IMG/VR virus record: IMGVR_UViG_3300020421_000005
Location: 1 to 64,000 of that record
Reading direction: 5' to 3' (one strand)
Source of the DNA: a virus
DNA: 64,000 nt
Shown here: in pieces, positions 21,546-44,787 of the stretch
Layout of the letters: each line of letters starts with the position of its first letter
Numbering within the stretch: position 1 is the stretch's first letter
Position numbers and translations under genes: made by a program
The notes under the pieces: generated by a model
Told to the model about the DNA's origin: nothing
Databases searched by the model: none
What the model saw: the letters and a program-made list of their open reading frames with translations, nothing else

Positions 21546-22238
21546 GTGACAAAATACATTTTTGATGTCGATGGGACTCTTACTCCCAGCCGACAAAAAA
21601 TTGATCCTGATTTTCTGATATTCTTCAATAGTTTTGTTCTAGCGAACGAAGTATATCTCGTCACAGGAAGTAATAGAGAGAAAACTATAGAACAAATTAC
21701 GCACCTTCTCTACTGTAATTGTAAGAGGGTGTATAATTGTGCTGGCAATGATGTGTACGAAGGTGATATTAGAGTATATACAAATCCGTGGGAACTTCCC
21801 GAAGAAGCAAGAGAGTTTCTCACAGAGGAACTACACAATAGTACATTTCCAGTAAGAACTGGAACACACATTGAGGAGAGGCCTGGATGTGTCAATTTTA
21901 GTATCGTAGGTAGAGGTGCGACTCTGGTAGAGAGACAGGTGTATTGTGATTGGGATGATATAAAGAAAGAAAGAGTAGAGATAGCAAATAGATTTAACAA
22001 ACAGTTCCCAGAACTCTATGCTTTTGTTGGTGGACAAACAGGTGTGGATATTTCAAGTAAGGGAAGTGATAAGAGTCAAATTGTTAGAGACTTCATGGAT
22101 GGTGATGTAGCATTCTTTGGTGATAGAATGGATGAACACGGTAATGATAGACCACTGGCAGATAAGATCATTGGAAATAGATTGGGTCAGGTTATTGAAG
22201 TGAAAGGTTGGGAAGATACATGGAGCAAACTCAAATGA
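21546..22238 (+). CDS. Phosphomannomutase, eukaryotic (PMM/HAD) type
   Basis: A 230-aa HAD-family protein. Motif I is FDVDGTLTPSRQKI (catalytic Asp pair, DxDGTLTPxRxxI as in eukaryotic PMMs); ERPGCVNFSIVGR and GGQTGVDISSKGSDKSQIV match PMM substrate and cap motifs, and FFGDRMDEHGND is the metal-binding motif IV. It would interconvert mannose 6-phosphate and mannose 1-phosphate, feeding GDP-mannose synthesis. The start is GTG at 21546. This links it with the GDP-mannose 3,5-epimerase at 28272. A related HAD sugar phosphatase is the alternative. Confidence 0.8.
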   Translation: MTKYIFDVDGTLTPSRQKIDPDFLIFFNSFVLANEVYLVTGSNREKTIEQITHLLYCNCKRVYNCAGNDVYEGDIRVYTNPWELPEEAREFLTEELHNSTFPVRTGTHIEERPGCVNFSIVGRGATLVERQVYCDWDDIKKERVEIANRFNKQFPELYAFVGGQTGVDISSKGSDKSQIVRDFMDGDVAFFGDRMDEHGNDRPLADKIIGNRLGQVIEVKGWEDTWSKLK

Positions 22239-26022: not shown

Positions 26023-26640
26023 ATGGACACCGAAATTAAATATGAATTCCATGACTTTATTGGAATATTTGAGAACGCAGTAGACCCACGCTTCTGTGAC
26101 TTCCTTGTAGACTACATGGACAAGGCAGAGTTTACAGATTTTAAAAGAAATTTTAGTCATGTAAAAGATAAACAAATATGTCTGGATGGATTTTCTCCTA
26201 GTGAGTGTTCCCAGTTGATGAAGTATGTTACTAATTGTTTATTTCATTACATCAATGAATATACCTACCTAGGCAATTTCAGTTATGTAAGTTCTCTGTG
26301 TCTACTTCAAAAGACAGAACCCACTAACGGATATCATTTGTTCCATGCAGAAAATGTGAATTGGAATCTAGGTAATAGAACTATGGCATGGATGGTATAT
26401 TTGAATGATGTAGAAGAGGGTGGAGAGACAGAATTTTTATATCAAAAGAGAAAAGTAAAACCAAAGAAAGGAACTATTCTTATTTGGCCTGGTGGATATA
26501 CTCATTTACATAGAGGCAATCCTCCTATGAGTGATAAGTATATTGCTACTGGTTGGTGGCAAGGAAACATTGGACTGCAACAAGTAAACACAGCAGGGAT
26601 TCTTGATAACCAATACAATGAAAGTTTAAACGCAAACTGA
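26023..26640 (+). CDS. 2OG-Fe(II) oxygenase (prolyl-4-hydroxylase-like)
   Basis: A 205-aa protein. YHLFHAENVNW carries the H-x-E variant of the metal motif, GGETEFLYQ is the family turn, and KGTILIWPGGYTHLHRGNPP supplies the distal His; the basic residue for 2-oxoglutarate is in SDKYIATGW. It would hydroxylate a protein or small molecule. The one-base TGATG overlap with the next oxygenase suggests the two act together, possibly on glycan or fibre components. Confidence 0.82.
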   Translation: MDTEIKYEFHDFIGIFENAVDPRFCDFLVDYMDKAEFTDFKRNFSHVKDKQICLDGFSPSECSQLMKYVTNCLFHYINEYTYLGNFSYVSSLCLLQKTEPTNGYHLFHAENVNWNLGNRTMAWMVYLNDVEEGGETEFLYQKRKVKPKKGTILIWPGGYTHLHRGNPPMSDKYIATGWWQGNIGLQQVNTAGILDNQYNESLNAN

Positions 26641-27290
26641 TGTCTCATATTCATATTCTATTTCCAACACCAGTTTATCAAAATGTCTTAGACTTCAGAC
26701 CATCTGAATTGAAACACATGTTAGATTTTTTAAAGACATGTGAATGGGCACCAGATACGGATATAGTCAACAGACCTAACGGAGAGACAACAAAATTGCA
26801 AGCGGATTTATTGTCAAGTCCAGAGTTGAGGTTGTTAGAAAATAGTATTGAGAATGAAGTTTATAAGTTCGCTAAGTCCCTACAACTTGATTTGAAAAAA
26901 CATGGGTTGAAAAGAATCAATTCTTGGGGTAACCTACAAACGAAGGGAAATTATATTGCAGAACATCGTCACAACAATACTCAGTTTGCTGGAGTGTTTT
27001 ATCTACAGGTTCCTGAGAACAGTGGCGACATTGTTTTTACAACCAAACAATCTACTTGGATCACTAGTCATTGGGAACCATCCGTGACTGGCTATGATGA
27101 TCTCAATAGTTTTGAGAAAAAATTTGAACCAGAAGAGTGTGGTCTATTTCTTTTCCCTGCACACCTAGATCACTATGTGACTCCTTCATTTTCTAATGAG
27201 GAAAGATATAGTATCTCATTCAATTACAATCTAGACGGCAAGTTCTTTGGGGATTGTAATAATCATCTCACATTTGAAGTTAAAACATGA
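26640..27290 (+). CDS. 2OG-Fe(II) oxygenase (TIGR02466-like)
   Basis: A 216-aa protein starting MSHIHILFPTPVYQNVLDFR, the typical head of this group, with INSWGNLQTKGNYIAEHRHN (first metal His region), AGVFYLQVPENSGDIVF and LFLFPAHLDHYVTPSFSNEE (distal His) then RYSISFNYNL (Arg for 2-oxoglutarate). Substrate unknown. Overlaps both neighbours. Confidence 0.82.
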   Translation: MSHIHILFPTPVYQNVLDFRPSELKHMLDFLKTCEWAPDTDIVNRPNGETTKLQADLLSSPELRLLENSIENEVYKFAKSLQLDLKKHGLKRINSWGNLQTKGNYIAEHRHNNTQFAGVFYLQVPENSGDIVFTTKQSTWITSHWEPSVTGYDDLNSFEKKFEPEECGLFLFPAHLDHYVTPSFSNEERYSISFNYNLDGKFFGDCNNHLTFEVKT

Positions 27291-27496
27291 TGACTCCAGA
27301 AGAGAAGGAACTCAGATCAACTTATAATTATTATAAGGATACTAAGATGGGTTTCTTTACTAAAGATGGATACGCTGCTGTACCATGCGGTAAATCCAAA
27401 AGAGTGATAGTATATGAAGGAGAGATCCTACACACAGCTCTTAATGATGACACAGCAAGGAATTGGATTGCACGCCACAGGAAGAAAAGAAAATGA
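27287..27496 (+). CDS. Small basic protein (69 aa)
   Basis: MMTPEEKELRSTYNYYKDTK...; soluble with a C-terminal RHRKKRK cluster. ATGA overlaps on both sides. No family recognised. Confidence 0.58.
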   Translation: MMTPEEKELRSTYNYYKDTKMGFFTKDGYAAVPCGKSKRVIVYEGEILHTALNDDTARNWIARHRKKRK

Positions 27497-28236
27497 CTAG
27501 AATTTTAATAACTGGCCACAAAGGTTTTATTGGCAAGGAACTGTTCTCTTCTCTAAGAGAAGTTTTTGGATACGGTGTTCAAGGATTAGACAGACCAGAT
27601 GACATTGGAGACTTTGTAGGTCCTTCTGGTATGTTCGCAGAACATTGGGATTGTATTATACATCTTGCAGCCTACGCTGCACTGAGAGATAGTGTGGATA
27701 ATCCACATAAGTTCTGGAATAATAATGTAGAGAAGTCTAAACCTATCTTTGATTATTGTAGAGAGAATAACGTTAGGTTATTGTATGCAAGTTCTGCTGG
27801 AGCACACGAGTGGTGGCAGAATCCTTATGCTATCACAAAGAAAGCAAATGAACTCATGGCACCACCTAACAGTGTGGGCATGAGATTTTTTAATGTGTGG
27901 GCAGAAGAAGGAAGTAGAGATGATATGTTATATGAAATGTTGAAACAAAGAACTGCAAAATATTTGACAAGACATAAGAGAGATTGGATTCATGTATTGG
28001 ATGTTGTGAGAGCAATCCATTACTTGATTACCAGTACATACACAGGAACTATTGATATCGGAACAGGACAGATGACATCTGTATTGGATCTTGCTGAGTC
28101 TTTAGGTATGAGTCATCTTCCTATCAAGGAGGAAACTCCCAACGAACCTGACGAGTTATGTGCAAATGTAGAACCTATGATGGAACTCGGTTGGTTTCCA
28201 ACTGTAAACATTATTGCACAAACCGCTGAAGTCTGA
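27493..28236 (+). CDS. NAD-dependent epimerase/dehydratase (SDR)
   Basis: A 247-aa short extended SDR. RILITGHKGFIGKEL is the NAD(P) Rossmann motif GxxGxxG, LLYASSAGAHEW holds the active-site Ser, and NPYAITKKANEL gives the YxxxK dyad. It probably modifies a nucleotide sugar. The ATG at 27493 overlaps the previous stop and gives a normal N-terminus. First enzyme of the 12-kb sugar island. Confidence 0.82.
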   Translation: MTRILITGHKGFIGKELFSSLREVFGYGVQGLDRPDDIGDFVGPSGMFAEHWDCIIHLAAYAALRDSVDNPHKFWNNNVEKSKPIFDYCRENNVRLLYASSAGAHEWWQNPYAITKKANELMAPPNSVGMRFFNVWAEEGSRDDMLYEMLKQRTAKYLTRHKRDWIHVLDVVRAIHYLITSTYTGTIDIGTGQMTSVLDLAESLGMSHLPIKEETPNEPDELCANVEPMMELGWFPTVNIIAQTAEV

Positions 28237-28239
28237 TAC

Positions 28240-28247
28240 AATAAATA
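28240..28247 (+). promoter_or_regulatory. Late-type promoter AATAAATA
   Basis: AATAAATA in the 35-bp gap before the GDP-mannose 3,5-epimerase gene, one base from the T4 late core. The spacing to the ATG (24 bases) is suitable. Confidence 0.5.
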
Positions 28248-28271
28248 AGATGAAGTTTATTTCAAACTTGT

Positions 28272-29327
28272 ATGGATAAGAAGACAGCACTAGTATTGGG
28301 TGCAGGCGGCTTCATTGGAAGTCACATGGTAAAACGACTACGATCAGAAGGGTATTGGGTTCGTGGCGTTGATATTAAGTACCCCGATTTCTCTATGAGT
28401 GCTGCCGATGATTTTGTTCAAGGTGATCTTAGAGAAGTAGGACTTGTAGCACAAGTCTTAGATGTAAATGGAGATTCTTTTGATGAGATCTACCAGTTCG
28501 CTGCCGACATGGGTGGTGCTGGATACATCTTTACAGATGAACACTCTGCTGACATCATGCACAACTCAGCAACTATTAATTTGAATGTTCTGAACGAACA
28601 AGTTCAACTTAATAGATTACTTGGTACAAACAAAACTAAGATCTTCTATTCTAGTTCTGCTTGTATGTACCCAGAACATAATCAATTAGATCCAGACAAT
28701 CCTGATTGCCGTGAGAACTCTGCCTACCCAGCCAATCCAGACTCAGAGTATGGATGGGAAAAACTCTTTTCGGAGAGATTGTATTTTGCCTATGCTCGCA
28801 ACTACAACCTTGACGTTTCTGTGGCTCGCTATCATAACATTTTTGGTCCTGAAGGGACTTGGGATGGCGGAAAAGAAAAAGCCCCTGCAGCAATCTGTAG
28901 AAAGGTCGCATCTTTACCAGACACAGGAGGAACTATTGAGGTATGGGGAGACGGTTTACAAACCAGATCATTCCTATACATTGATGAGTGCATTGAAGCA
29001 ACTCGTAGGTTGATTGATTCTGATTTTGAAGGACCTGTCAACATTGGTTCTGAAGAAATGGTTACTATCAATCAGTTGGTAGAAACTGCTGCTAAGGTAT
29101 CAGGTAAGGTTGTTAGAAAGGCACACAAACTTGATGCACCTTTGGGTGTCCGTGGACGTAATTCAAACAACGATCTTATTCGTGAGAAACTTGGATGGGA
29201 TTATTCACAGACTCTTGAAGAAGGTATCTCCAAGACTTATGCTTGGATCACTGAACAAATTAAATCTCGTCAACATGGCGTAGTTGAAATTACATCAAAG
29301 GAACTAGAACATGCGAAAAGTAACTAA
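28272..29327 (+). CDS. GDP-mannose 3,5-epimerase-like SDR
   Basis: A 351-aa extended SDR closely resembling plant GDP-mannose 3,5-epimerase. LVLGAGGFIGSHMVKRL binds NAD; QFAADMGGAGYIFTD, SSSACMYPEHNQL (acid/base Cys), SEYGWEKLFSERL (YxxxK), RYHNIFGPEGTWDGGKEKAP, EVWGDGLQTRSFLYIDEC and GVRGRNSNNDLIREKLGW are family blocks. It would make GDP-L-galactose (and GDP-L-gulose) from GDP-mannose. The phosphomannomutase upstream could provide the precursor. It overlaps the next gene by 17 bases. Confidence 0.88.
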   Translation: MDKKTALVLGAGGFIGSHMVKRLRSEGYWVRGVDIKYPDFSMSAADDFVQGDLREVGLVAQVLDVNGDSFDEIYQFAADMGGAGYIFTDEHSADIMHNSATINLNVLNEQVQLNRLLGTNKTKIFYSSSACMYPEHNQLDPDNPDCRENSAYPANPDSEYGWEKLFSERLYFAYARNYNLDVSVARYHNIFGPEGTWDGGKEKAPAAICRKVASLPDTGGTIEVWGDGLQTRSFLYIDECIEATRRLIDSDFEGPVNIGSEEMVTINQLVETAAKVSGKVVRKAHKLDAPLGVRGRNSNNDLIREKLGWDYSQTLEEGISKTYAWITEQIKSRQHGVVEITSKELEHAKSN

Positions 29328-29898
29328 GAAGAATATCAAACTTGATAAGGATGCAATCCGTTCTCTAGATGTTTCGCATCTTGCAGAACAATCACTCAAC
29401 CCAAATGATTGGCTCACTGCTGGTCAGAGTGAATACCGATTGTATTCTTGGTTATCTACACAGTTCAATGATTCTATCATCTTAGATGTTGGTACAAGGA
29501 CAGGAGGTTCTGCCCTTGCACTATCTTACAATGATAAGAATAAAGTTATTAGTTATGACTTAGTTGAGCAGGGTGCATCCGAAGGAATCAAAAAAGATAA
29601 TGTTGAGTTTAAGGTTCAAGACTTTAGAACTGATGACTTGAATTGGGATCACGTTTCTATTATAATGATTGACGTTGACCCTCATGATGGAACGGCAGAG
29701 GAAGAGATGTTTGAATACCTAGAAGAGAAAGGATGGTCTGGTATTGTTCTTCTCGATGATATCGGTCCTCAGTGGCCTGAGATCGAAGACTTCTGGAACA
29801 GAATCACATTCCCTAAAATTAATGTCACTGAGATTGGACACATGAGTGGTACAGGTCTTGTCAATTTTGATGAGAAACATTCCGTTGCTTGGCTTTGA
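29311..29898 (+). CDS. Class I SAM-dependent methyltransferase-like protein
   Basis: A 195-aa protein. SIILDVGTRTGGSALALSYN resembles SAM motif I, NKVISYDLVE the acidic loop II, and SIIMIDVDPHDGTAEEEM motif IV with a DPHDG metal-like loop found in cephalosporin-hydroxylase/Methyltransf_24 relatives. Probably O-methylates a sugar made in this island. Overlaps both neighbours. Confidence 0.68.
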   Translation: MRKVTKKNIKLDKDAIRSLDVSHLAEQSLNPNDWLTAGQSEYRLYSWLSTQFNDSIILDVGTRTGGSALALSYNDKNKVISYDLVEQGASEGIKKDNVEFKVQDFRTDDLNWDHVSIIMIDVDPHDGTAEEEMFEYLEEKGWSGIVLLDDIGPQWPEIEDFWNRITFPKINVTEIGHMSGTGLVNFDEKHSVAWL

Positions 29899-30803
29899 TG
29901 GAGGTTGTTATTACAAAAATGGATTATGAAGACATGTATTACGAGCAAAGGGCTCGTAAGATATTGGTGCTAGGATCTGGTGGTCAAGTTGGAGCATATC
30001 TGACTGACTACCTTAATCGTATGGGGAATGAAGTCCTTGAGTTTGATATCACTAATGGTAGTGAACAGGACATGACAGTCATTCCTAATGGTGAACTTGA
30101 AGCCAAAATTTATATGGCAGATTTTGTGTACTTCCTTGCCTTTGATGTGGGAGGATCACACTATCTTAAAAAGTATCAACATACTTTTCAGTTCATCGAT
30201 AACAATACAAGATTGATGGCAAATGCCTTTGGTCTACTTGAGAAACACAATAAACCATTTGTATTTGCATCATCACAGATGAGTAATATGTCTTACTCTC
30301 CCTATGGTGTATTGAAAAGAGTTGGCGAACTTTATACCAAGTCTCTTGGTGGATTGATCGTCAAGTTCTGGAATGTATATGGTATTGAGAAAGACATGGA
30401 CAAGGCACATGTCATTACAGATTTCATCCGTAAAGGGTTTGAGTCTGGTGATATAGATATGATGACAGACGGAACCGAAGCGAGGGAATTTCTTTATGCG
30501 GAAGACTGTTGTGAGGCGCTGGAGACTGTTATGGAGACATACCATGATCTCCATTCTGACGATGAACTTCATATTACTACTGGTGTTTATACAACTGTGT
30601 TGGAGATTGCGTCTGAAATTAAGTCATTATTTTCGGGTATTGGCAAGGAGATCACGATTACTCCAGCACAGTCGAAGGACGAAGTGCAGAAGGATGCTAG
30701 GAACGTCCCCGACCCATTCATCCAGAAGTTTTGGAAACCAAAAACATCTGTCCCAGAAGGTTTGAAAAAAGTATTTGAGGAGATGAAAAAGGATTATGAA
30801 TAA
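29898..30803 (+). CDS. NAD-dependent epimerase/dehydratase (SDR)
   Basis: A 301-aa SDR with KILVLGSGGQVGAYLTDYLN (Rossmann motif), FVFASSQMSNMSYSPYGVLK (active-site Ser and YxxxK) and SGDIDMMTDGTEAREFLYAE (sugar-nucleotide binding). Distinct from the other two SDRs in the island. The ATG at 29898 overlaps the previous stop (TGATG); ATG 29922 is possible. The exact sugar cannot be told. Confidence 0.8.
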   Translation: MEVVITKMDYEDMYYEQRARKILVLGSGGQVGAYLTDYLNRMGNEVLEFDITNGSEQDMTVIPNGELEAKIYMADFVYFLAFDVGGSHYLKKYQHTFQFIDNNTRLMANAFGLLEKHNKPFVFASSQMSNMSYSPYGVLKRVGELYTKSLGGLIVKFWNVYGIEKDMDKAHVITDFIRKGFESGDIDMMTDGTEAREFLYAEDCCEALETVMETYHDLHSDDELHITTGVYTTVLEIASEIKSLFSGIGKEITITPAQSKDEVQKDARNVPDPFIQKFWKPKTSVPEGLKKVFEEMKKDYE

Positions 30804-31773
30804 GTATGATGCCGAAGCGGCAGCACTAAGAGAGGCAGTTGAAAAGGCGAAGAAGAGTCCTACAGGAATTGACTTTCCTGTTCTAGGACCTGAGTCAAAA
30901 TTTCCTATCAATCTTTATTGTAATGATTCATTAGAACCATCTACTTCGGCAAACAATAGGTCGGTCTATACTAGATGGATTCGTAATGGTACTGGACTTG
31001 TGAATCTCTATGTAAATGGAGAGGCACTAAAAGTCTTGGAGGACGATAGCGACAAACCAAAATTTATTTGGTTGTTAGAGTCTAGGGAGATTATCCCAGA
31101 TCAGTATAGATTTATAGAGGAGAATTATGATTTTGTTGCTAGTCGTGTTGATGGTATCTTTACTTGTGATCAGAGACTCACAACTGAGGCTGGCCCTGAT
31201 GGTAAATTTCTCTATTGTTTATCTAACGCTGCTCCTTGGGTCATGGATAGGGCAGTCTATCGCAAATCAAAACTCGTCTCAATGGTCGCATCTAACAAAG
31301 GGTATACAGTGGGACATCAACGTCGCCTCAAAGTCGTAGAATCATACTATAAAAAACAAGGTGGCGATGATTTATTTGGTTGGGGATTACCTCAAGAGTT
31401 ACCACTAAAAGAAAAGTCAAGAGCATTGAGAGATTATATGTTCTCCTTTGCAGTAGAGAACGCAAACTATCCAACTTACTTTACTGAGAAGTTGACAGAT
31501 TGTTTTGCGTGTGGAACTATTCCAGTGTATTATGGTACTGCTGGAGTGGCACAATACTTCAATCCAGAAGGTATCATTTTCCTAGATGAGAAAAAACCTT
31601 GGGATAATATTCCTTGGGATAAACTCACACCAGAGTATTATGAATCCAAGAAAGATGTAATACAAGAAAACTTTGAGATTGCTCAGTGCATGAGAGTCGC
31701 AGAGGATTACATGTATGGAAATTATTTTGCACAAATCGACCCACTTAGACATCAAAAACCTAGAGTATCATGA
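30796..31773 (+). CDS. GT10-family glycosyltransferase (alpha-1,3-fucosyltransferase-like)
   Basis: A 325-aa protein. The C-terminal block YMFSFAVENANYPTYFTEKL and TDCFACGTIPVYYG matches the GT10 donor-binding motif FxFxFENSxxxxYxTEKLxxAxxxGxIPVYxG. It should transfer L-fucose or a near analogue such as L-galactose from its GDP form. N-terminal acceptor domain is shorter than in bacterial FucTs. It overlaps its neighbours by 8 and 4 bases. Confidence 0.85.
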   Translation: MNKYDAEAAALREAVEKAKKSPTGIDFPVLGPESKFPINLYCNDSLEPSTSANNRSVYTRWIRNGTGLVNLYVNGEALKVLEDDSDKPKFIWLLESREIIPDQYRFIEENYDFVASRVDGIFTCDQRLTTEAGPDGKFLYCLSNAAPWVMDRAVYRKSKLVSMVASNKGYTVGHQRRLKVVESYYKKQGGDDLFGWGLPQELPLKEKSRALRDYMFSFAVENANYPTYFTEKLTDCFACGTIPVYYGTAGVAQYFNPEGIIFLDEKKPWDNIPWDKLTPEYYESKKDVIQENFEIAQCMRVAEDYMYGNYFAQIDPLRHQKPRVS

Positions 31774-32582
31774 GTGAAATTATTGACGTATCTGCAACTA
31801 CTGTCACAGATGACCGTAGTGGATGGCAAGCAGAAGATCAGATTGCCGTAGAGTATCTTGAAGCATGTAAAGAAGCAGTTGCATCTGATGATGCCTTTGC
31901 AAACTTTAAATCTAATCCAAAGTACAAGACTATCCTAGAACATGTACTTAAGGATCAAGGACAAGCATACCTAAACATCTGTAAGGATATGAATGAGGAT
32001 GCTGTATGGGATAACATCGAAGCATTTAAAGAGAATGACAAGATTGGTAATCCAGAATTGTATCCTTACCCAGGCATGACAGGTACGATATCTCCTACAA
32101 CTCTCAGGTATATGAAGAATACTTTTGAGTGTGGATTCTTACTTGATGGTGCTCCTGTTAGTAAGATTGTAGAAGTAGGTGGTGGATATGGTGGACTCTG
32201 TAGAGTCTTGAGTAAAGTGTGTGAGTTTGATCAATACATTCTCATTGATTTACCAGAGGTATCTGCCTTGCAAAGAAAATATCTAGATCAGTTTGAAGAT
32301 CTAAAAGATAAGGTAACATGTATTCCGTGTACAGAGTACGAAGAGATCAAAGATGTAGATCTTTTCATTAGTAACTATGCTCTATCTGAATGTGATCTGC
32401 CTACACAGATGGCATATTACGATAAGATTATCACGAATTCAAAATATGTTTATATGATATACAACCTTGTCAACTTTAATGAATTCTATTATAATGATTT
32501 CATTGAGAAGATCAAAAAAGATTACACCTTTGATACAGGTCGTGATTATGAAAACACTGTCATTCTAGCAACTAGAAAATGA
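31770..32582 (+). CDS. Putative sugar O-methyltransferase
   Basis: A 270-aa protein with KIVEVGGGYGGLCRVL (SAM motif I), YILIDLPEVSALQRKYL and DVDLFISNYALSECDL, the blocks of the putative sugar O-methyltransferase group found in polysaccharide loci. It would methylate a sugar residue. ATGA overlaps on both ends place it firmly in the glycan operon. Confidence 0.78.
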   Translation: MSEIIDVSATTVTDDRSGWQAEDQIAVEYLEACKEAVASDDAFANFKSNPKYKTILEHVLKDQGQAYLNICKDMNEDAVWDNIEAFKENDKIGNPELYPYPGMTGTISPTTLRYMKNTFECGFLLDGAPVSKIVEVGGGYGGLCRVLSKVCEFDQYILIDLPEVSALQRKYLDQFEDLKDKVTCIPCTEYEEIKDVDLFISNYALSECDLPTQMAYYDKIITNSKYVYMIYNLVNFNEFYYNDFIEKIKKDYTFDTGRDYENTVILATRK

Positions 32583-33340
32583 ATCGAATTGAAGATTACA
32601 AAACACTGACTATTGATATGGTTGGGTGGTTGTGTAAGTATGCACATGATAATCATGTGACCAGTTTTGTGGTAGGAGTTTCTGGTGGAATTGATTCTGC
32701 CGTTGCTTCTACCCTTGCTGCAAGAACAGGATTACCAACTTTCGTTATTGGTATGCCACTGAATCAAAAGAAAGATCAGGAGACACTCTCTGATGCACAC
32801 ATGTTTTGGTTGGCAAAAAACTATACCAATGTAAAACATCTCAAGGCAGATCTTTCCGAAAGTTACGCCAAGTTAATGTCGGATTTGACAAATGAGTTTG
32901 GTATGGAGTATACTGGAAATCCATTGGCGAAAGCCAATACAAAATCACGCCTCCGCATGGTGACACTATATCATGTCGCTGCAAATGTAGGAGGTATCGT
33001 AGTAGGTACAGGTAACAAGGTAGAAGATTATGGAGTCGGTTTTTATACTAAGTATGGTGATGGTGGGGTTGACATTGCTCCGATTGCGGACCTTTACAAG
33101 TCCGAAGTCAGACGACTCGGAAGAGAACTCGGAGTGATCCCTGAGATCATCAATGCAACTCCTACAGATGGACTGTGGGAGGATGGTAGAAACGATGAAG
33201 ACCAGATTGGCGCTTCATACGAACAACTAGAAGAGGCAATGGAAACTGGTGCAGGTCCTGCCTTAGAGATCTTGAACAAATTTAATGCACAAAACAAACA
33301 CAAAATGGATCCTATCCCAACGTATAAATTAGAGGTTTAA
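32579..33340 (+). CDS. nadE: NH3-dependent NAD+ synthetase
   Basis: A 253-aa N-type ATP pyrophosphatase. FVVGVSGGIDSAVAS holds the SGGxDS PP-loop; GNPLAKANTKSRLRMVTLYH, VVGTGNKVEDYGVGFYTKYG and DGGVDIAPIADLYKSEVRRL are NadE blocks. There is no glutaminase domain, so ammonia is the likely nitrogen donor. It would finish NAD+ synthesis; NAD is cofactor of the neighbouring SDRs and dehydrogenase. Confidence 0.92.
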   Translation: MNRIEDYKTLTIDMVGWLCKYAHDNHVTSFVVGVSGGIDSAVASTLAARTGLPTFVIGMPLNQKKDQETLSDAHMFWLAKNYTNVKHLKADLSESYAKLMSDLTNEFGMEYTGNPLAKANTKSRLRMVTLYHVAANVGGIVVGTGNKVEDYGVGFYTKYGDGGVDIAPIADLYKSEVRRLGRELGVIPEIINATPTDGLWEDGRNDEDQIGASYEQLEEAMETGAGPALEILNKFNAQNKHKMDPIPTYKLEV

Positions 33341-33347
33341 TTTCAAA

Positions 33348-34499
33348 ATGAAAATCGGTGTTATCGGTGCAGGGAGACTTGGCATTTGCTTTGCCCTTCT
33401 TGCTGAGTCCGCTGGTCATGATGTATTCGTTTCTGACATACAACAAAGTTATGTCAGTAAACTTAATGCTAAAGAACTTTATAGTAACGAACCAGAAGTA
33501 GAAGATCTTTTGCTTCGATCTAAGAAACTAAGAGCGAGTACCAACAATCAAGATGTTATTAAATCCTCTGACGTTATCTTTACTTTTGTTCCTACTCCCT
33601 CTCTAGATGATGGCAGTTATGATTGTAGTTTAGTTGATGATGTTGTGTGTGATCTTCTCAGGTCTCCCAACTTGGAAGGAAAGAAATTTATTGTCGGATG
33701 CACAACCAATCCAGGCTTTGTAGATAGGGTAGATAAGAAATTAGAAGGAAGAGGTATAAGTGTATTCTATAGTCCTGAGTTTGTTGCACAAGGAACAATC
33801 ATCAGAGACATGAAAAATGCAGATATGATTCTGTGTGGTGGCAATGATGAGGAAGGATTTGAACTTATCAAATCAATCTATCTTTCATTCATGGAGAGAG
33901 AGGTAAACTTCTATCCCATGTCTAATACTGCTGCAGAGATCACTAAGATTGGTATCAACTGTTTCCTTACATACAAGATCAGTTATGCTAACATGATGGG
34001 TCAGATTCTATACAACTCTGGGTGTGGTAAGGAGATTGAAAAGATCCTGTCATCCATTGGAGCGGACAGCAGAATTGGGTCTAAATATTTGAACTATGGT
34101 TTGGGTTTCGGAGGTCCTTGCTTGCCCCGTGACAACCGTGCTTTAGGATACTATGCTGATAAGGTTGGTCTTAAGTATAGTCTTCCTCAAGTGACTGATG
34201 ATTTTAATGAAGCACATGCAGAGTTCATTAAGAACTACTGTGTAGAGTGCAATACAGAAGGTCTTGCTTTTTTCATTGATAGTATTGGTTACAAGGTAGG
34301 ATGTGATCTGGTAGTTGAAAGTCCACGACTTAGACTCGTAGAAGATCTATTGAAGGATGGTCACACAGTATATGTGCAAGAGATTGATGATGTCGTAGAT
34401 GAGTATGGCGAAGAACTCGAAGAAGATTATGGAGATAATATTATCTTTGTCAAGAACCATAATGAAATACATGAGAAGACATGGAGGATTGACCTTTGA
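33348..34499 (+). CDS. UDP-glucose/GDP-mannose dehydrogenase family protein
   Basis: A 383-aa nucleotide-sugar dehydrogenase. MKIGVIGAGRLGICFAL binds NAD, FTFVPTPSLDDGSYD is the family loop, SPEFVAQGTIIRDM and the catalytic Cys box GLGFGGPCLPRDNRALGYYA are present. It oxidises a nucleotide hexose to the uronic acid form. The C-terminal domain is a bit shorter than usual. The sugar (UDP-Glc, GDP-Man or other) is not determined. Confidence 0.88.
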   Translation: MKIGVIGAGRLGICFALLAESAGHDVFVSDIQQSYVSKLNAKELYSNEPEVEDLLLRSKKLRASTNNQDVIKSSDVIFTFVPTPSLDDGSYDCSLVDDVVCDLLRSPNLEGKKFIVGCTTNPGFVDRVDKKLEGRGISVFYSPEFVAQGTIIRDMKNADMILCGGNDEEGFELIKSIYLSFMEREVNFYPMSNTAAEITKIGINCFLTYKISYANMMGQILYNSGCGKEIEKILSSIGADSRIGSKYLNYGLGFGGPCLPRDNRALGYYADKVGLKYSLPQVTDDFNEAHAEFIKNYCVECNTEGLAFFIDSIGYKVGCDLVVESPRLRLVEDLLKDGHTVYVQEIDDVVDEYGEELEEDYGDNIIFVKNHNEIHEKTWRIDL

Positions 34500-35356
34500 C
34501 GATTAGTTATAATCGCCTCGGTAGTAATGGTAGACTTGGAAACCAAATGTTTCAGTATGCCTCACTCAGAGGAATCGCAAATTACAATCAGTATCAGTGG
34601 ATGATTCCGCCACCTGATTGTAACCATAAAGATAATTATGGATTGTTTGATACATTTGAAATGAAGCATGTACAACCTGAGAATCTTGGGTTCAATGATG
34701 GCATGACAGTCAAAGAATCTACACATGCTTTTGATGAGAGTTTATTTTACTGTACAGATGGTGTCAACATAGATGCCTATCTACAAACAGAAGATTACTT
34801 TGTACACATTGCAGATCAGATCCGTGAAGACTTCACATTTAAAAAAGATGTTCTCGAACCTTGTACTGATTACATCAGGTCTTTGGATAGCCCTCCTATT
34901 TTTCTGCACATTCGTCAGTCCGATAATATTGGAAGAGAGGAATTCCACCCCATCCTCCCGCTTACATTTTTTAAAACTGCGCTAGAATTTTGGAGTCCTG
35001 ATACTCCATGTTTTGTATTCACAGATGATTTAGATTGGTGTAAGAATCAATCATTCTTTGACAACGATAGGTTTATCTTTAATGATAATCCTGAGAGATA
35101 TGAATATCAAACTATCGATGGCACAGGCCAGATGCAGAACACTCTTCTGCCTCAGGTTGATCTATGTTTGATGAGTCTTTGTTCTGGTGCCATCATCGCC
35201 AACAGTTCATTCAGTTGGTGGGGTGCATGGTTGCAAGGAGATAGGGGTAAAGTCATCGCCCCCGACCCAGAGAAGTGGTATGGTTCTTCCATGTCACACT
35301 TGGATACAAGTATGATGGTTCCTGCCCGTTGGCAGACACACTATTGGAGTAAATAA
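34496..35356 (+). CDS. GT11-family glycosyltransferase (alpha-1,2-fucosyltransferase-like), copy 1
   Basis: A 286-aa protein. NGRLGNQMFQYASLRGIAN is the GT11 head and SGAIIANSSFSWWGAWL the C-terminal family motif. The donor motif HxRRGD reads HIRQSDN, so the second Arg is replaced. The start is a TTG overlapping the previous TGA, with GGAGG 8 bases upstream. First of three GT11 genes in 3.5 kb. Confidence 0.85.
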   Translation: MTISYNRLGSNGRLGNQMFQYASLRGIANYNQYQWMIPPPDCNHKDNYGLFDTFEMKHVQPENLGFNDGMTVKESTHAFDESLFYCTDGVNIDAYLQTEDYFVHIADQIREDFTFKKDVLEPCTDYIRSLDSPPIFLHIRQSDNIGREEFHPILPLTFFKTALEFWSPDTPCFVFTDDLDWCKNQSFFDNDRFIFNDNPERYEYQTIDGTGQMQNTLLPQVDLCLMSLCSGAIIANSSFSWWGAWLQGDRGKVIAPDPEKWYGSSMSHLDTSMMVPARWQTHYWSK

Positions 35357-36282
35357 TGGCAATTTCATTTCAAGGATTAGGAAACGAAGGTAGACTAGGA
35401 AATCAAATGTTCCAGTATGCTTTTGTAAGAGGACTTGCTGCACATAAAGAATATGATTGGGTCATCCCAGGCCCTGATGCAGATAGACTTGACAACTATG
35501 GTTTGTTCGATGCGTTTGAATTGTATGGTTGCCTCCCACAAAATCAGGGAGAACCATTCTTCCATAAACAGAAAGTCTATAGAGACATGAAGTTCAATAA
35601 AGAGATATGGGATTGGGCTGAAGACGATACTAATTTCTCTGGTAATTTTCAAACAGAATTATACTTTGAAAGTATCTCTGCTGATATTAGACATGACTTT
35701 ACATTTAAGAAAGAATATCTAGAACCCTGTACAGAGTTTATTGAAGAGAACGGTGGACAAGATAATAATATCTTCCTACATGTTCGCAGAGGTAATCCTA
35801 ATGTGACAGGCAGAAGAGGAGAGAAATGGTCTTATCAGATGGTGCAAGAGTATCATCCTATTTGTAAGAAAGAATATTATATTGAGGCACTATCAAAGTT
35901 TCCAGAAGATAAAAATGTTATTGTAGTTTCTGACACTATTGATTGGTGTAAGAAACAGGATTGGTTACAGGGAGATAGATTCCTATTCTCTGATGCCTCT
36001 TATGAGGAGTTTGGAGATGGTGCATCTGTTCCTTATATTGATCTCTGTCTTATGACACTATGCGGTGGTGGTATTATCGCCAACTCATCTCTATCATGGT
36101 GGGGTGCATGGTTGCAGAAAGGTGGAGATAAGATGGGTAAAAACTCTATCCAAAGACACTGGCAAGTTGTTGCTCCTGATCCTTGGTTTGGAATTAAGTA
36201 TGACATGTATGACATGAGCGATTTGATTCCCCCACGTTGGATTAAATTACACAATGATCCCTCTTACATTGAGCCTGAATAA
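35356..36282 (+). CDS. GT11-family glycosyltransferase (alpha-1,2-fucosyltransferase-like), copy 2
   Basis: A 308-aa protein with NEGRLGNQMFQYAFVRGLAA, FLHVRRGNPNVTGRRG (Asp of HxRRGD replaced by Asn) and GGIIANSSLSWWGAWLQ. The central part has an insertion (RGEKWSYQMVQEYHP) shared with copy 3, suggesting these two are closer relatives. TAATG overlap with copy 1. Confidence 0.86.
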   Translation: MAISFQGLGNEGRLGNQMFQYAFVRGLAAHKEYDWVIPGPDADRLDNYGLFDAFELYGCLPQNQGEPFFHKQKVYRDMKFNKEIWDWAEDDTNFSGNFQTELYFESISADIRHDFTFKKEYLEPCTEFIEENGGQDNNIFLHVRRGNPNVTGRRGEKWSYQMVQEYHPICKKEYYIEALSKFPEDKNVIVVSDTIDWCKKQDWLQGDRFLFSDASYEEFGDGASVPYIDLCLMTLCGGGIIANSSLSWWGAWLQKGGDKMGKNSIQRHWQVVAPDPWFGIKYDMYDMSDLIPPRWIKLHNDPSYIEPE

Positions 36283-37119
36283 ATGAAAGATATAACCTAC
36301 CTACTGCCATGTAGGATAGAGACGGAGGACAGACTACGAAATGTAATCACCTCCATTACTTACATAATGAAATGCTTTCCCGAAGCAAAAGTTATTGTAA
36401 AAGAAGTAGACACGCAATCACACTTCAGTGAGAGTGCTTTGCCTCGCATCAAAAGTTATGTGGGAGATACTTCACAACTGAAACATATCTTTGAACAAAG
36501 TTCAGAGAAGTTTTTTCATAAAACAAGAATACTAAATGACCTATGCGTTGCCGCTGATACTCCTATTCTATACAATCATGATGTGGATGTTGTTGTCCTA
36601 AAGAACTCACATCAACTTGCTCACCGTGCCATCACACAGGAAGGATCCGATGCTGTCTATCCTTTTGGATGTGGTATCTACCAGTGGGCAGTAACTTACT
36701 CCGATCAACTATTGGATAAGTTTTTATCATCACATGATGGTAACGATGCTGACTTTGAAGTTCTCAAGGATCACAAAGTTAGGATTCCATCATCTATTGG
36801 ATGGGGTCAAATGATAACCAAAACCGCAGAAGTATCTGCTGGACTATGGAATGAAGAATTCATATCATGGGGAGCAGAAGATTGTGAGTTTTATTACCGA
36901 CTAAATTGTTTTGGATTTAAAGTTGGCAGAGTCATTGATGACATCTATCACTTTGAACATGGCAGAACATTCAATTCACATTATCACAATCCTAAGTTTC
37001 AAGATAACGATAGATTGTGGAACTGGATTAGGACTCAAGATAAAGAGTCTTTGACACAATACTATGCAAAGTTAGACTACATCAAACGCAGGGGGAACGA
37101 ACTAAATGCTAGCCTTTAA
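36283..37119 (+). CDS. GT-A glycosyltransferase (GT7/chondroitin-synthase-like)
   Basis: A 278-aa protein. ILYNHDVDVVVLKNS holds the DxD metal motif and WNEEFISWGAEDCEFYYRLN is the W-G-x-E-D catalytic block of GT7-C type galactosyl/hexosaminyl transferases, followed by HFEHGRTFNSHYHNP. A UDP-sugar transferase extending the glycan is likely. It directly abuts copy 2 and overlaps copy 3. Confidence 0.8.
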   Translation: MKDITYLLPCRIETEDRLRNVITSITYIMKCFPEAKVIVKEVDTQSHFSESALPRIKSYVGDTSQLKHIFEQSSEKFFHKTRILNDLCVAADTPILYNHDVDVVVLKNSHQLAHRAITQEGSDAVYPFGCGIYQWAVTYSDQLLDKFLSSHDGNDADFEVLKDHKVRIPSSIGWGQMITKTAEVSAGLWNEEFISWGAEDCEFYYRLNCFGFKVGRVIDDIYHFEHGRTFNSHYHNPKFQDNDRLWNWIRTQDKESLTQYYAKLDYIKRRGNELNASL

Positions 37120-37963
37120 TCAAATGGGTAACCTAGGCAGACTAGGTAATCAAATGTTTCAGTATGCTGCCGTTAGGGGTATCTCTGCTATGCGTGGATA
37201 TGAATTTGGTATTCCACCTTTTGAATCTAAGAGAGTAGATAATTATAGTTTACACAGAGCCTTTACATTAGAGAGTGTAGGAAGAAGTAATCTTGCAGTT
37301 CTTGATAGAGGTCACGCTCCTGTAGTAATCGAAAAACATTTTGAGTTTGATGAAGAACTCCATAGAATGTGCCCCAATGATGTAAGTTTATTTGGATTCT
37401 TTCAGACAGAAAAATATTTCAAAAATATAGAACAAGATATCAGGAGAGATTTTACTTTCCATGATTCTATTCTAGGACCTTGTAAGGAAATGGTAGATTC
37501 ATTAGATCAGGTTCCATTGTTCTTACATGTAAGGAGAGGAGATCCTAATCTAGTAGATGCCAGAGGGTTTAAATGGTCTTACACCGAATGTTCTGGTCAA
37601 CATCCACCACAACCTGTAGAATACTATGAGAAGGCACTCAAGGAGTTTCCAGAGGATCAACCCATAGTAGTTTGTTCAGACTCTCCTGAGTGGGTAAACG
37701 AACAGGAGTTCTTTGCTGATGATAGATTCCTTGTATCAGAACCAACAGACAAATATCCCGATGGATCTTATGAACCATTCGTTGATCTCTGCATCATGAG
37801 TTTATGTTCTGGTGCAATCATTGCTAACTCATCCCTATCATGGTGGGGTGCATGGTTACAAAATGGTAGAGGAAAAGTCGTAGCACCTAAACAATGGTTC
37901 GGTCCAGATTATAAAGACAAAAATCTTAAGGACTTATATTGTGACGGATGGATCGTAATTTAA
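37106..37963 (+). CDS. GT11-family glycosyltransferase (alpha-1,2-fucosyltransferase-like), copy 3
   Basis: A 285-aa protein with LGRLGNQMFQYAAVRGISAM, the full consensus donor motif FLHVRRGDPNL and SGAIIANSSLSWWGAWLQ. It is the only copy of the three with an unaltered HxRRGD. Overlaps the GT-A gene by 14 bases and the next gene by 16. Confidence 0.88.
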   Translation: MLAFNQMGNLGRLGNQMFQYAAVRGISAMRGYEFGIPPFESKRVDNYSLHRAFTLESVGRSNLAVLDRGHAPVVIEKHFEFDEELHRMCPNDVSLFGFFQTEKYFKNIEQDIRRDFTFHDSILGPCKEMVDSLDQVPLFLHVRRGDPNLVDARGFKWSYTECSGQHPPQPVEYYEKALKEFPEDQPIVVCSDSPEWVNEQEFFADDRFLVSEPTDKYPDGSYEPFVDLCIMSLCSGAIIANSSLSWWGAWLQNGRGKVVAPKQWFGPDYKDKNLKDLYCDGWIVI

Positions 37964-38454
37964 TTGTAATAGATAATTTTTTAGATGACCCAGACAGGAT
38001 AAGGTTTCATGCCTTATCCTTAGATTTTGATAGGATTCAAAAATCTGTGCCTGGTGTAAGGTCTCATAGGTTAGGTGGGGATCTACAAAAAGAAGTAGAG
38101 ACTAAACTAAAGACTGCTCTCGGAGGAGAGATTGTATGGGATTGGACACAGGACACTTTTTGTTTTCAATCATGCCAAGAAGGAACAGAAACTTGGGTTC
38201 ATGTTGATAGTCAGGGAGAAAATCAAGGAGAGTGGGCAGCAGTATTATATCTGACTCCCGATCCTATTCTTGATTCTGGAACTGGTATCTATGAGTCGCC
38301 CGACACTGATATGAATATCGGTGTAGGAAATATTTACAATAGACTGGTTGCGTATCGTGGCAAAGTGTTGTATCATAGAAGTATTCTGCCTGGTTTTGGC
38401 AACACGCTAGAAACAAGTAGACTCACACAAACATTCTTTTTCGATGTCAAATAA
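37948..38454 (+). CDS. DUF6445-like 2OG-Fe(II) oxygenase
   Basis: A 168-aa protein: ETWVHVDSQGENQGEWAAVL (H-x-D metal motif), YLTPDPILDSGTGIYES, YNRLVAYRGKVLYHRSILPG (distal His) and SRLTQTFFFDV. This arrangement matches the DUF6445 group of DSBH proteins. Its place between glycosyltransferases suggests action on the same glycan or on a protein carrier. Confidence 0.72.
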   Translation: MDRNLIVIDNFLDDPDRIRFHALSLDFDRIQKSVPGVRSHRLGGDLQKEVETKLKTALGGEIVWDWTQDTFCFQSCQEGTETWVHVDSQGENQGEWAAVLYLTPDPILDSGTGIYESPDTDMNIGVGNIYNRLVAYRGKVLYHRSILPGFGNTLETSRLTQTFFFDVK

Positions 38455-39253
38455 ATCTGCATACAAACTTAGAGGATTCGGTCCGCTTTACATCATTAAT
38501 CTGGATGAACAACCAGAGAGGATGAAGTGGATGGAAGAACAACTCAAAGAATGGGAGATTGAAAACTACACTCGTATCTCTGCATATGATGGTAGACCTT
38601 CCACAGGTGACGACCTGAGTGAGATCTTGGTTGGTAAGTATCCTGACAGTATTACGCCTGGTGAGATTGGTTGTGTGACTTCTCACCTCAAGGCACTCAA
38701 ACATTTTGTTGAGGAGACTGATGAACCATACGCAATCATCATGGAAGATGATTGTGACATTAGTATCGCACAGTTCTGGACATTCACATGGAGACAATTC
38801 ATCTCTAGGATGCCATACGACTGGGACACAGTTCAAGTTGCAGTGATCTGCCCTGGCGAACTACATGTACAGGTTCATCGTAGATTTATTAATGACTTTT
38901 CTACTGCATGTTATGTCATAACTAGACATCATGCTGAGAAACTATTGAAACTTCATGTCAGAGGAGAGAAATATAAACTCGACAATGGCGTGAAACCTAG
39001 ACCTGTCGCTGATGACCTGATCTACAACTCAGGTGCATCTTATGCCTGTCCTGTCTTCCTATACAAGATCGAACTAGGTTCCTCAATCCATGAAGAACAC
39101 ATTGAGATCTTCCATAGGGGGAGTCACGATGGTCTCAGAGAACTCTGGACTACAAGGGGTGGGGACATCACTATTGATATGTTATCCGACTTTGATCCTT
39201 ATCTAGGTAGGATTGCTGGTGGTGATCCTAGAAACAAAGGACAGGGAGCTTGA
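38444..39253 (+). CDS. GT25-family glycosyltransferase (LPS-type)
   Basis: A 269-aa protein. LYIINLDEQPERMKWMEEQL, TPGEIGCVTSHLKALKHFVE and YAIIMEDDCDIS are the GT25 blocks, the last holding the metal-binding acidic run. Usually a galactosyltransferase of LPS or collagen. Last gene of the sugar island; its TGA is within the next -35 box. Confidence 0.88.
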   Translation: MSNKSAYKLRGFGPLYIINLDEQPERMKWMEEQLKEWEIENYTRISAYDGRPSTGDDLSEILVGKYPDSITPGEIGCVTSHLKALKHFVEETDEPYAIIMEDDCDISIAQFWTFTWRQFISRMPYDWDTVQVAVICPGELHVQVHRRFINDFSTACYVITRHHAEKLLKLHVRGEKYKLDNGVKPRPVADDLIYNSGASYACPVFLYKIELGSSIHEEHIEIFHRGSHDGLRELWTTRGGDITIDMLSDFDPYLGRIAGGDPRNKGQGA

Positions 39254-39469: not shown

Positions 39470-39820
39470 ATGTTCAAAAATGTAATCGCAGCCGCAGCTG
39501 CTGCTCCCCTTTTCGCTGGTGCTGCTTTCGCAGGACCTTATGTAAACGTTGAAACCAATTCTTCATTCACTGGTGGAGACTACACTGCAACTACAGCCGA
39601 GTTTGCACTTGGTTACGAAGGATCTAACTGGTATGTCCAAGGTGGTCCTATTGTAAACTCACCTGATGGTGGTGACTCTGACACAGAATTCCTTGCAAAG
39701 GCAGGTGGATCTGTTGATTTGTCTGAGTCTGTTGTTGGTTACGGCGAACTCACCTTCCAAACTGCTGATGGTGCAGACAACGGATACGGTGCTAAAATCG
39801 GTGCTAAGTACGTTTTCTAA
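39470..39820 (+). CDS. Porin-like small outer-membrane-type protein
   Basis: A 116-aa protein with a signal peptide (MFKNVIAAAAAAPLFAGAAFA, cleavage near residue 21), alternating beta strands (TAEFALGYEGSNWYVQGGP; DLSESVVGYGELTFQ) and a C-terminal AKIGAKYVF ending in Phe, the typical outer membrane insertion signal. Its size would fit a very small barrel or oligomer. Own promoter, long leader and terminator, so it is a single-gene unit. It may alter host envelope permeability. Confidence 0.72.
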   Translation: MFKNVIAAAAAAPLFAGAAFAGPYVNVETNSSFTGGDYTATTAEFALGYEGSNWYVQGGPIVNSPDGGDSDTEFLAKAGGSVDLSESVVGYGELTFQTADGADNGYGAKIGAKYVF

Positions 39821-43283: not shown

Positions 43284-43333
43284 GTGTTGATTTCAACACT
43301 TCCTTCGACCCGCTAACCGAGACCTATGGGTCG
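43284..43333 (+). promoter_or_regulatory. psbA 5' UTR hairpins
   Basis: GTGTTG-ATTT-CAACAC at 43284-43299 and CGACCC...GGGTCG at 43306-43333 form two stem-loops in the leader. 5' hairpins may stabilise the mRNA, as in many psbA transcripts. Confidence 0.55.
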
Positions 43334-43378
43334 TTAAATTACGTCTCTATTTTACTCACATAACATCGCACTCTTTCA

Positions 43379-44464
43379 ATGACAACTCTTTCACAACGCA
43401 AACGTGGCGGATTGTTAGCTGGATGGGACGAGTTTTGCGAGTGGACTACATCCACTAACAATCGTATCTACGTCGGTTGGTTCGGAGTCTTAATGATTCC
43501 TTGCCTCCTCGCAGCTACCACTTGTTTCATCGTAGCTTTCATCGCTGCACCTCCTGTCGATATCGACGGAATCAGAGAGCCAGTTGCTGGTTCTTTAATG
43601 TATGGTAACAACATCATCTCTGGTGCTGTTGTCCCAAGTTCAAACGCAATCGGACTACACTTCTACCCAATCTGGGAAGCAGCTTCACTAGACGAGTGGC
43701 TCTATAACGGAGGCCCTTATCAGTTAGTTGTATTCCATTTCCTAATCGGCATCACAGCATACTGTGGTCGTCAGTGGGAATTATCATACAGATTAGGTAT
43801 GAGACCTTGGATCTGTGTTGCTTATTCCGCACCTGTATCTGCTGCAATGGCAGTATTCCTTGTGTATCCATTCGGTCAAGGTTCATTCTCTGACGGTATG
43901 CCACTTGGAATTTCTGGAACATTCAACTTCATGTTTGTTTTCCAGGCAGAGCACAACATTCTTATGCACCCATTCCACATGATTGGAGTAGCTGGTGTAT
44001 TCGGAGGTTCACTCTTCTCTGCAATGCACGGTTCACTTGTAACATCTTCTTTGATCAGGGAGACAACTGAGCAAGAGTCTCAGAACTATGGTTACAAGTT
44101 CGGACAAGAAGAAGAAACATACAACATCGTAGCTGCACACGGTTACTTCGGTAGATTAATCTTCCAGTATGCTTCGTTCAACAACTCAAGAAGTTTACAC
44201 TTCTTCCTTGCCGCTTTCCCAGTTGTTTGCATCTGGATTACCGCAATGGGTATCAGCACAATGGCATTTAACCTTAACGGTTTCAACTTCAACCAGTCTG
44301 TTCTAGACAACTCTGGTAAAGTGATTCCTACATGGGCAGATGTTCTTAACCGTGCTAACCTTGGTATGGAAGTAATGCACGAGCGTAACGCTCACAACTT
44401 CCCACTAGACTTGGCTGCTGCCGAGACAAGTGAAGTTGCTTTAACTGCACCTTCTATTGGTTAA
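43379..44464 (+). CDS. psbA: Photosystem II D1 protein
   Basis: A full-length 361-aa D1 ([20 protein letters not shown]...). Five-helix reaction-centre protein that turns over quickly in light; the phage copy keeps PSII running while host synthesis stops. Visible family blocks: [34 protein letters not shown], the stromal [20 protein letters not shown] (plastoquinone pocket) and the C-terminal [12 protein letters not shown] processing region. No intron or interruption. Own promoter, structured leader and terminator. Confidence 0.99.
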
Positions 44465-44551: not shown

Positions 44552-44623
44552 GGGACTGTCGCATATTGGTTAATGCGCTCTGCTTATAACGGAGTCAATC
44601 GGGTTCAATTCCCGACAGTCCTA
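44552..44623 (+). tRNA. tRNA-Ile (anticodon UAU, reads AUA)
   Basis: Acceptor GGGACTG pairs with CAGTCCT; anticodon stem CTCTG/CGGAG with loop CTTATAA; T loop GTTCAATTC. Reads AUA, a codon rare in GC-richer hosts. The CCA end is not encoded. Confidence 0.82.
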
Positions 44624-44626
44624 CCA

Positions 44627-44700
<74 letters not shown>

Positions 44701-44703
44701 TTC

Positions 44704-44787
44704 GGGAGTGTGGTGGAATCGGTAGACACACCAGACTTAAAATCTGTTGACAGCAATGTCGTGAGGGTTCGAGTCCCTCCTCTCCCA
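44704..44787 (+). tRNA. tRNA-Leu (anticodon UAA, reads UUA)
   Basis: Class II tRNA with a long variable arm (TTGACAGCAATGTC), anticodon stem CCAGA/TCTG with loop CTTAAAA, T arm GAGGG-TTCGAGT-CCCTC. Acceptor GGGAGTG/CTCTCCC with one T-T mismatch at pair 6. Confidence 0.88.

Follow-up and report, generated by a model that had tools for sequence, protein, structure and literature searches.

Which sugar do the glycosyltransferase family 10 and 11 (GT10 and GT11) enzymes of a cyanophage glycan cassette transfer when a GDP-mannose 3,5-epimerase (GME) stands where other phages carry GDP-mannose 4,6-dehydratase (GMD) and GDP-fucose synthase (Fcl)? The question is raised by positions 27493-39253 of a 64,000-nucleotide stretch (the window) of virus record IMGVR_UViG_3300020421_000005. 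The full record of 112,724 bp is near Synechococcus phage S-SSM7, whose complete genome of 232,878 bp carries the same island, colinear, as SSSM7_252-265. Nearby genes for psbA, tRNAs, heme oxygenase, PhoH and gp32 identify the record as a T4-like cyanophage. The island comprises 14 coding sequences, all on the plus strand, from a first ATG at 27493 to a last stop at 39253. On balance it is probably a functional phage unit that builds an L-hexose glycan, in which the GT10 and GT11 enzymes would transfer the GME product in place of L-fucose.

The identity of the epimerase, encoded at 28272-29327, is central to this proposal. Its top matches in the PDB are the Arabidopsis GME structures 2c59, 2c54, 2c5a and 2c5e with E values around 1e-83 (1.8e-83 for 2c59), versus about 1e-17 for GDP-fucose synthases and 1e-17 to 1e-21 for Fcl, GalE and RmlB. 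Residues S129, C131, Y160, K164, N189, K203, R232 and R296 are invariant across 110 viral and 79 bacterial relatives. They include the SxnYx3K triad of the short-chain dehydrogenase/reductases (SDRs), formed by S129, Y160 and K164 and present in all of these sequences, as well as the GM35E-type acid C131, base K203 and cysteine-acidifying R296. The related GMER/Fcl enzymes differ from GM35E by using a histidine as base and a lysine in place of the cysteine-acidifying arginine (PMC8787198). Every residue listed as functionally important in that review of GM35E is present in the phage protein, which is, as far as sequence can tell, a genuine GME with a complete catalytic set. An earlier annotation made from the DNA letters only (the sequence-only reading) had proposed this identity, and the PDB matches and catalytic residues bear it out.

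Its label "plant-type" was misleading, however: bacteria commonly encode this family, as do dozens of cyanophages. Relatives of 61-81% identity were found on at least 80 genome contigs from bacteria or archaea, although binned phage contigs may account for some of these. A plant-type origin is not supported, as near relatives are widespread among bacteria. A cyanophage GME was published in 2022 for S-SCSM1, where it lies beside GMD and Fcl (PMC9602691). Three GME contigs are labelled as metagenome-assembled genomes of Bifidobacterium breve or Klebsiella pneumoniae; these come from dated serial samples, are 63-72% identical to cyanophage GME, and their labels look wrong. Three Prochlorococcus single-cell genomes contain a GME with 73-76% identity, which may be a host gene or derive from a co-sorted phage contig.

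The sequence-only reading asked whether GMD or Fcl genes occur beyond the island. We scored GMD with TIGR01472 and Fcl with NF047922, for which the positive control S-SCSM1 gave 569 and 455 bits, respectively. Neither the 112,724-bp record nor the complete sister genome of S-SSM7 has a match to GMD, nor a match to Fcl at E<=1e-30. Both genes were also not found in the complete genomes of P-TIM68, Sf-FS3, SynMITS9220M01, Bellamy, S-SM2 and S-CAM9, which gave weak SDR cross-matches only, and GMD was not found in a 231-kb environmental record bearing GME and a phosphomannomutase. One 29.7-kb GME contig has a GMD-like gene that scores 373 bits, below the cut-off. Taken alone, the lack of phage GMD and Fcl says little, given that GMD scores above cut-off in 88 of the 151 host-family genomes sampled; for this reason, the stand-alone argument that a phage without GMD must use GDP-L-galactose for GT11 was rejected. 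GME was present in 2 of these 151 genomes, both being seeds retrieved by the GME search. Thus, hosts are often able to make GDP-fucose, and seldom if ever GDP-L-galactose by GME. The host data can be read in two ways: GT11 could draw on host fucose, yet phages of the fucose type still carry their own GMD and Fcl.

A stronger argument comes from the cyanophages that have GT11, which bear either GMD-Fcl or GME. Viral loci were collected as sets ranked by query similarity, so that the fractions obtained are not population frequencies: none of 80 GME-seeded loci has GMD or Fcl within 10 kb, 59-61 of them (two scoring rounds) contain GT10 and/or GT11, many of the others being short contigs, and among 80 GMD-seeded loci only four contain GME. 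All 21 GME cyanophage isolates, several of which are closely related to each other, encode GT11, and among the matches listed S-SCSM1 is the only one with GMD-Fcl beside GME; the host tallies leave no room for others. Conversely, nearly all GT11 phages without GME bear GMD-Fcl (P-SSM2, ACG-2014f, S-SRM01, DSL-LC02). The orthologue groups T4-GC254, 260, 265 and 266 occur with GME in S-SSM7 and with GMD-Fcl in P-SSM2; at the head of the cassette, before shared orthologues, one of these donor modules seems able to replace the other. Directly 3' of GME, Bellamy, S-CAM9 and SynMITS9220M01 have a GT11 gene and S-SM2 a GT10 gene. Furthermore, the GT11 tree clusters by donor head, requiring 13 changes of GMD state versus 42.6 in shuffles, with at least 7 supported switches. 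The clades of two of the island's GT11 proteins, GT11a and GT11b, have no GMD-only member, and the orthologue group of the third, GT11c (T4-GC260), accompanies GMD-Fcl in P-SSM2.

GT10 and GT11 are families whose usual donor is GDP-L-fucose. The three GT11 proteins, encoded at 34496-35356 (GT11a, PF01531 E 4.6e-15), 35356-36282 (GT11b, E 2.3e-14) and 37106-37963 (GT11c, E 9.9e-17), score 54-62 bits with PF01531 at a cut-off of 23.9. The GT10 protein at 30796-31773 (PF00852 E 8.9e-9; Helicobacter pylori FucT 2nzw E 2.9e-8) has kept the YxTEK donor motif. A model of GT11a (predicted local distance difference test, pLDDT, of 90) has a GT-B fold with FUT8, NodZ, AtFUT1 and POFUT1 as nearest structures. 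Of these, FUT8 and AtFUT1 accept GDP-L-galactose, as does AtFucTA, so that acceptance of this donor spans several fucosyltransferase families (PMC8787198). The HxRRxD motif reads HVRRGDP in GT11c, HVRRGNP in GT11b and HIRQSD in GT11a. HIRQ replaces HxRR in 13 further distinct members of the GT11a lineage, and, among GT11 sequences with the motif, glutamine occupies this position in 16 of 107 linked to GME versus 0 of 55 linked to GMD; HIRQSD in this lineage could reflect altered donor binding. Residue x of HxRRxD was considered as a donor mark (threonine if GMD-linked, glycine or serine if GME-linked) and discarded, since threonine occurs in both groups (138 sequences) and seven independent pairs gave no support. 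The GT11 sequence does not distinguish fucose from galactose as the donor.

Two other transferases complete the set. The enzyme at 36283-37119 had been called a GT7-like GT-A glycosyltransferase. An AlphaFold model (pLDDT 94) with chondroitin polymerase K4CP, SpsA and B4GalT1 as nearest structures supports the GT-A part of this call, whereas the GT7 match to PF02709 stays just under threshold (22.5 versus 23 bits). A PDB sequence search with this protein and with GT11c gave no match. The last cassette gene, at 38444-39253, encodes a GT25 enzyme (T4-GC266; PF01755 E 1.1e-15) with a weak PDB match to procollagen galactosyltransferase.

A potential feeder of GDP-mannose, which the sequence-only reading of the island omitted, lies 5.3 kb upstream. 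The gene at 21546-22238 (plus strand) encodes a predicted eukaryote-type (HAD) phosphomannomutase (PF03332 E 6.8e-15; PDB 5ue7 E 1.6e-16) with the DxDGT nucleophile motif, three substrate arginines and the substrate motif RTGTHIEERPGCVNFSIVGR. Its ratio of nonsynonymous to synonymous substitution rates (dN/dS) is 0.06. Among other isolates it was found only in S-SSM7/6a and P-TIM68, which are GME phages, apart from two weak non-cyanophage matches; in S-SSM7 the gene is annotated as hypothetical. Viral contigs contain 66 relatives, some on contigs without GME in the available part. Of 18 larger or chosen contigs with the phosphomannomutase gene, GME was also present in five (including those of 134 kb and 231 kb) and GMD in none; the remaining contigs are mostly small, yet include fragments of up to 60 kb without GME. 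No mention of a phosphomannomutase of these phages was found in the literature searched.

The cassette also carries signs of regulation and selection. A promoter-like element at 28214-28247 (plus strand) precedes GME and consists of a sigma70-like site with an extended -10, TTGCAC-17 nt-(TGa)TACAAT, which overlaps the T4-late-like octamer AATAAATA. Among distinct GME upstream regions, 30 of 79 have a late-like octamer at an almost constant distance of 27-36 nt before the GME ATG, versus 0 of 71 GMD upstreams, 0 of 109 GT11 upstreams and 1.7% of random sequences. A sigma70-like score of at least 10 was reached by 57% of GME upstreams versus 4% of random sequences. With its own conserved promoter-like element, GME appears to head a transcription unit. 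Comparison of the window with S-SSM7 gave dN/dS values of 0.027-0.166 for all 14 genes (0.035 for GME) and showed no broken frames or stops in any of them. The cassette is thus under selection and presumably functional; the island is neither chance nor decayed sequence.

In the route that we propose, the phage phosphomannomutase would convert mannose 6-phosphate to mannose 1-phosphate, a host enzyme would turn the latter into GDP-mannose, and phage GME would epimerize this to GDP-L-galactose and some GDP-L-gulose. The GT10 and GT11 enzymes would then place the L-sugar, instead of L-fucose, onto acceptors to whose synthesis GT25 and the GT-A enzyme contribute, while other residues may be supplied or decorated by the SDR proteins, the dehydrogenase and the methyltransferases. 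GME would act as an alternative donor head that replaces GMD-Fcl in a cyanophage glycan cassette. From the gene comparisons, L-galactosyl (or L-gulosyl) transfer by GT10 and GT11 appears to be the best explanation. We see roughly even chances for the wider proposition that cyanophages have two interchangeable donor heads, GMD-Fcl leading to L-fucose and GME, with or without a phage phosphomannomutase, leading to L-galactose, and that the GME-linked GT11 and GT10 lineages are true viral L-galactosyltransferases, decorating the surface of the infected cell or the virion with a sugar that the host seldom, if ever, makes.

The remaining cassette genes encode enzymes of sugar metabolism and modification. 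A short SDR nucleotide-sugar epimerase/dehydratase is found at 27493-28236 (T4-GC265; PF01370 E 4.2e-21), with its orthologue group also present in P-SSM2, and a second SDR epimerase/dehydratase at 29898-30803 (T4-GC254; PF01370 E 4.5e-20), for which a role as Fcl was ruled out by a score of 46 bits against a cut-off of 500. The sequence-only reading listed two methyltransferases: the one at 31770-32582 is a NanM-type sugar O-methyltransferase (TIGR04371, 72.6 bits, cut-off 44), whereas that at 29311-29898, kept in 25 of 80 GME viral loci, has no Pfam or NCBIfam match and is a putative methyltransferase by the annotation of the corresponding Sf-FS3 gene only. NAD synthetase NadE (32579-33340; PF02540 E 1.1e-45; TIGR00552, 161 versus 64 bits at cut-off) is followed by a nucleotide-sugar 6-dehydrogenase of the UDPG/MGDP type (33348-34499; TIGR03026, 210 versus 190 bits at cut-off; PDB 3gg2 E 6.9e-36), and these two genes (32579-34499) form a conserved pair across many GME cassettes. 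In a glycan operon NadE may serve NAD supply or the amidation of a uronic acid. A DUF6445 protein resembling 2-oxoglutarate (2OG) oxygenases is encoded at 37948-38454 (PF20043 E 5.7e-9; phrog_1644). Pfam searches agree with the earlier calls for the SDR, GT10, three GT11, GT25, dehydrogenase, NadE and DUF6445 proteins. The reading frame coordinates and the mostly overlapping arrangement were likewise confirmed (the genes overlap at 10 of their 13 junctions, abut at one and are separated by 35 and 7 nt at the other two), but the gene count of thirteen has to be corrected to 14, the sum of that reading's own listing.

Hydropathy analysis identified no candidate membrane segment in any of the 14 proteins, and they include neither a flippase nor a polymerase nor a transferase that would initiate on a lipid carrier. 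Upstream, two 2OG-Fe(II) oxygenases flank the island at 26023-26640 (PF13640) and 26640-27290 (PF13759), both on the plus strand. Directly 3' of the cassette, positions 39470-39820 encode an outer-membrane beta-barrel protein (PF24653); similar genes, annotated as DUF680 or outer membrane protein, trail other cyanophage cassettes. Rfam found no known RNA in the island and matched only tRNAs, at 44552-44787, and the PhotoRC-II motif (RF01717) at 43294-43371, just 5' of psbA (43379-44464). Further downstream, at 47166-48701, a carbamoyltransferase C-terminal family protein (PF16861) might indicate further sugar decoration. In bleomycin biosynthesis, an L-gulose-forming epimerase is paired with a carbamoyltransferase. 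Finally, the island matches the lipopolysaccharide (LPS) cassettes of Sullivan et al. (2010), which are marked by T4-GC260, 265 and 266 and a place near hli03 and tRNAs: orthologues of these groups were assigned via S-SSM7 colinearity, and psbA and tRNAs lie nearby.

The idea that GT10 and GT11 use the epimerase product, already voiced in the sequence-only reading, gains from comparative genomics but has to be weighed against the possible availability of host GDP-fucose. The transferases could use host GDP-L-fucose while the GME product goes to another transferase (such as GT25, the GT-A enzyme or an SDR route) or pathway, giving a glycan with fucose and a separate L-sugar; we consider this unlikely. 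It would agree with the frequency of GMD in host-family genomes, with S-SCSM1, in which GMD, Fcl and GME lie side by side with several fucosyltransferases (PMC9602691), and with Synechococcus phage B23, one clear exception that has GT11 but neither GME nor GMD and shows that a phage can carry GT11 while lacking donor genes of its own. These points weigh against L-galactose transfer, as do the 10 loci of the GT11-seeded set that hold both heads, the scarcity of GT10 or GT11, detectable with the models used, near bacterial GME, and the result for the 40 GT11 columns that diverge most, among which no residue separates GME-linked from GMD-linked sequences under phylogenetic control, none having enough independent switches. 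S-SCSM1 and the 10 contigs rule out that GME and GMD strictly exclude each other, and the link between GME and GT10/GT11 may be peculiar to cyanophages. On the other hand, most GME-less GT11 cyanophages bring GMD-Fcl even though their hosts often have GMD, which indicates that GT11 phages usually supply the donor pathway themselves. The lack of GMD-only members in the GT11a and GT11b clades and the position of GT11 or GT10 directly after GME in four phages also favour transfer of the GME product over use of host fucose.

Under L-sugar transfer, the target of the glycan has to be considered as well. With 14 soluble-looking proteins and no assembly machinery, the cassette probably modifies an existing acceptor, most likely a host envelope glycan or LPS during infection; the barrel gene and the presence of only cytosolic transferases were counted toward a host envelope precursor. 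The alternative that the glycan is attached to virion proteins in tail fibres or capsid, with 2OG-Fe(II) oxygenases hydroxylating and GT25 glycosylating in a collagen-like manner, is compatible with the donor hypothesis and has a modest chance of being correct. The flanking oxygenases, the resemblance of GT25 to procollagen galactosyltransferase, the absence of a flippase, polymerase or membrane protein, the late-like motif before GME and the filing of DUF6445 under "minor coat protein" in PHROGs would all fit. However, such oxygenases are common throughout cyanophages, a sigma70-like promoter also precedes GME, the adjacent barrel gene hints at the host envelope, and the tail and baseplate proteins that were inspected contain no collagen-like GXY repeats that could be a glycosylation target. 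Sullivan et al. (2010) raised the possibility that such clusters are non-functional filler or transient passengers, "stuffer DNA" for headful packaging, and size differences of S-SSM7 and P-SSM2 indeed mostly stem from them (PMC3037559). For the present island this is very improbable, being contradicted by the low dN/dS of all 14 genes without stops, the invariant catalytic residues in 110 viral GMEs, and a gene order and promoter-like element that are conserved across many contigs.

The function of cyanophage "LPS" clusters, including whether they work or are filler, has been open since 2010, and selection is now shown for this cassette. The analysis also yields a chemical prediction: one phage lineage would add L-galactose where another adds L-fucose. 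If true, viruses change the sugar alphabet of host surfaces or particles, with a bearing on superinfection, grazing and host range, and natural L-galactosyltransferases and viral GMEs could become tools for rare L-sugar synthesis. In the literature searched, S-SCSM1 is the only published cyanophage GME, and there appears to be no earlier report of a GME-only head or of its link to phosphomannomutase.

The closest known system is the LPS cluster of S-SSM7 and S-SSM6a, which is colinear with the same 14 genes and a GME of 98% identity, annotated there merely as UDP-glucose 4-epimerase or nucleotide-sugar epimerase; S-SSM7 covers 93% of window positions 22000-44000 at 89% nucleotide identity and is a related phage with a different record. 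The P-SSM2-type cassette, also found in S-SKS1, ACG-2014f, S-SRM01, DSL-LC02 and S-CAM7, is alike and ends in GT25 and hli genes, but it has a GMD-Fcl head for GDP-L-fucose instead of GME. The cell-wall cluster of S-SCSM1 combines GME with GT11, NodZ and other transferases, and differs by adjacent GMD, Fcl and GME genes, a mannose-6-phosphate isomerase and no GT10 annotated near GME (PMC9602691). The GME of Methylacidiphilum fumariolicum belongs to the same family and has a glycosyltransferase and a methyltransferase nearby, with a suggested role in LPS; it is a cellular enzyme, and the part of the report consulted describes no GT10 or GT11 (PMC6678494). In the Arabidopsis mur1 mutant, L-galactose replaces L-fucose, as the GME product is accepted by fucosyltransferases (PMC8787198). 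Whereas that replacement is the outcome of L-fucose deficiency in a mutant, in the phage it is the gene content that suggests the substitution.

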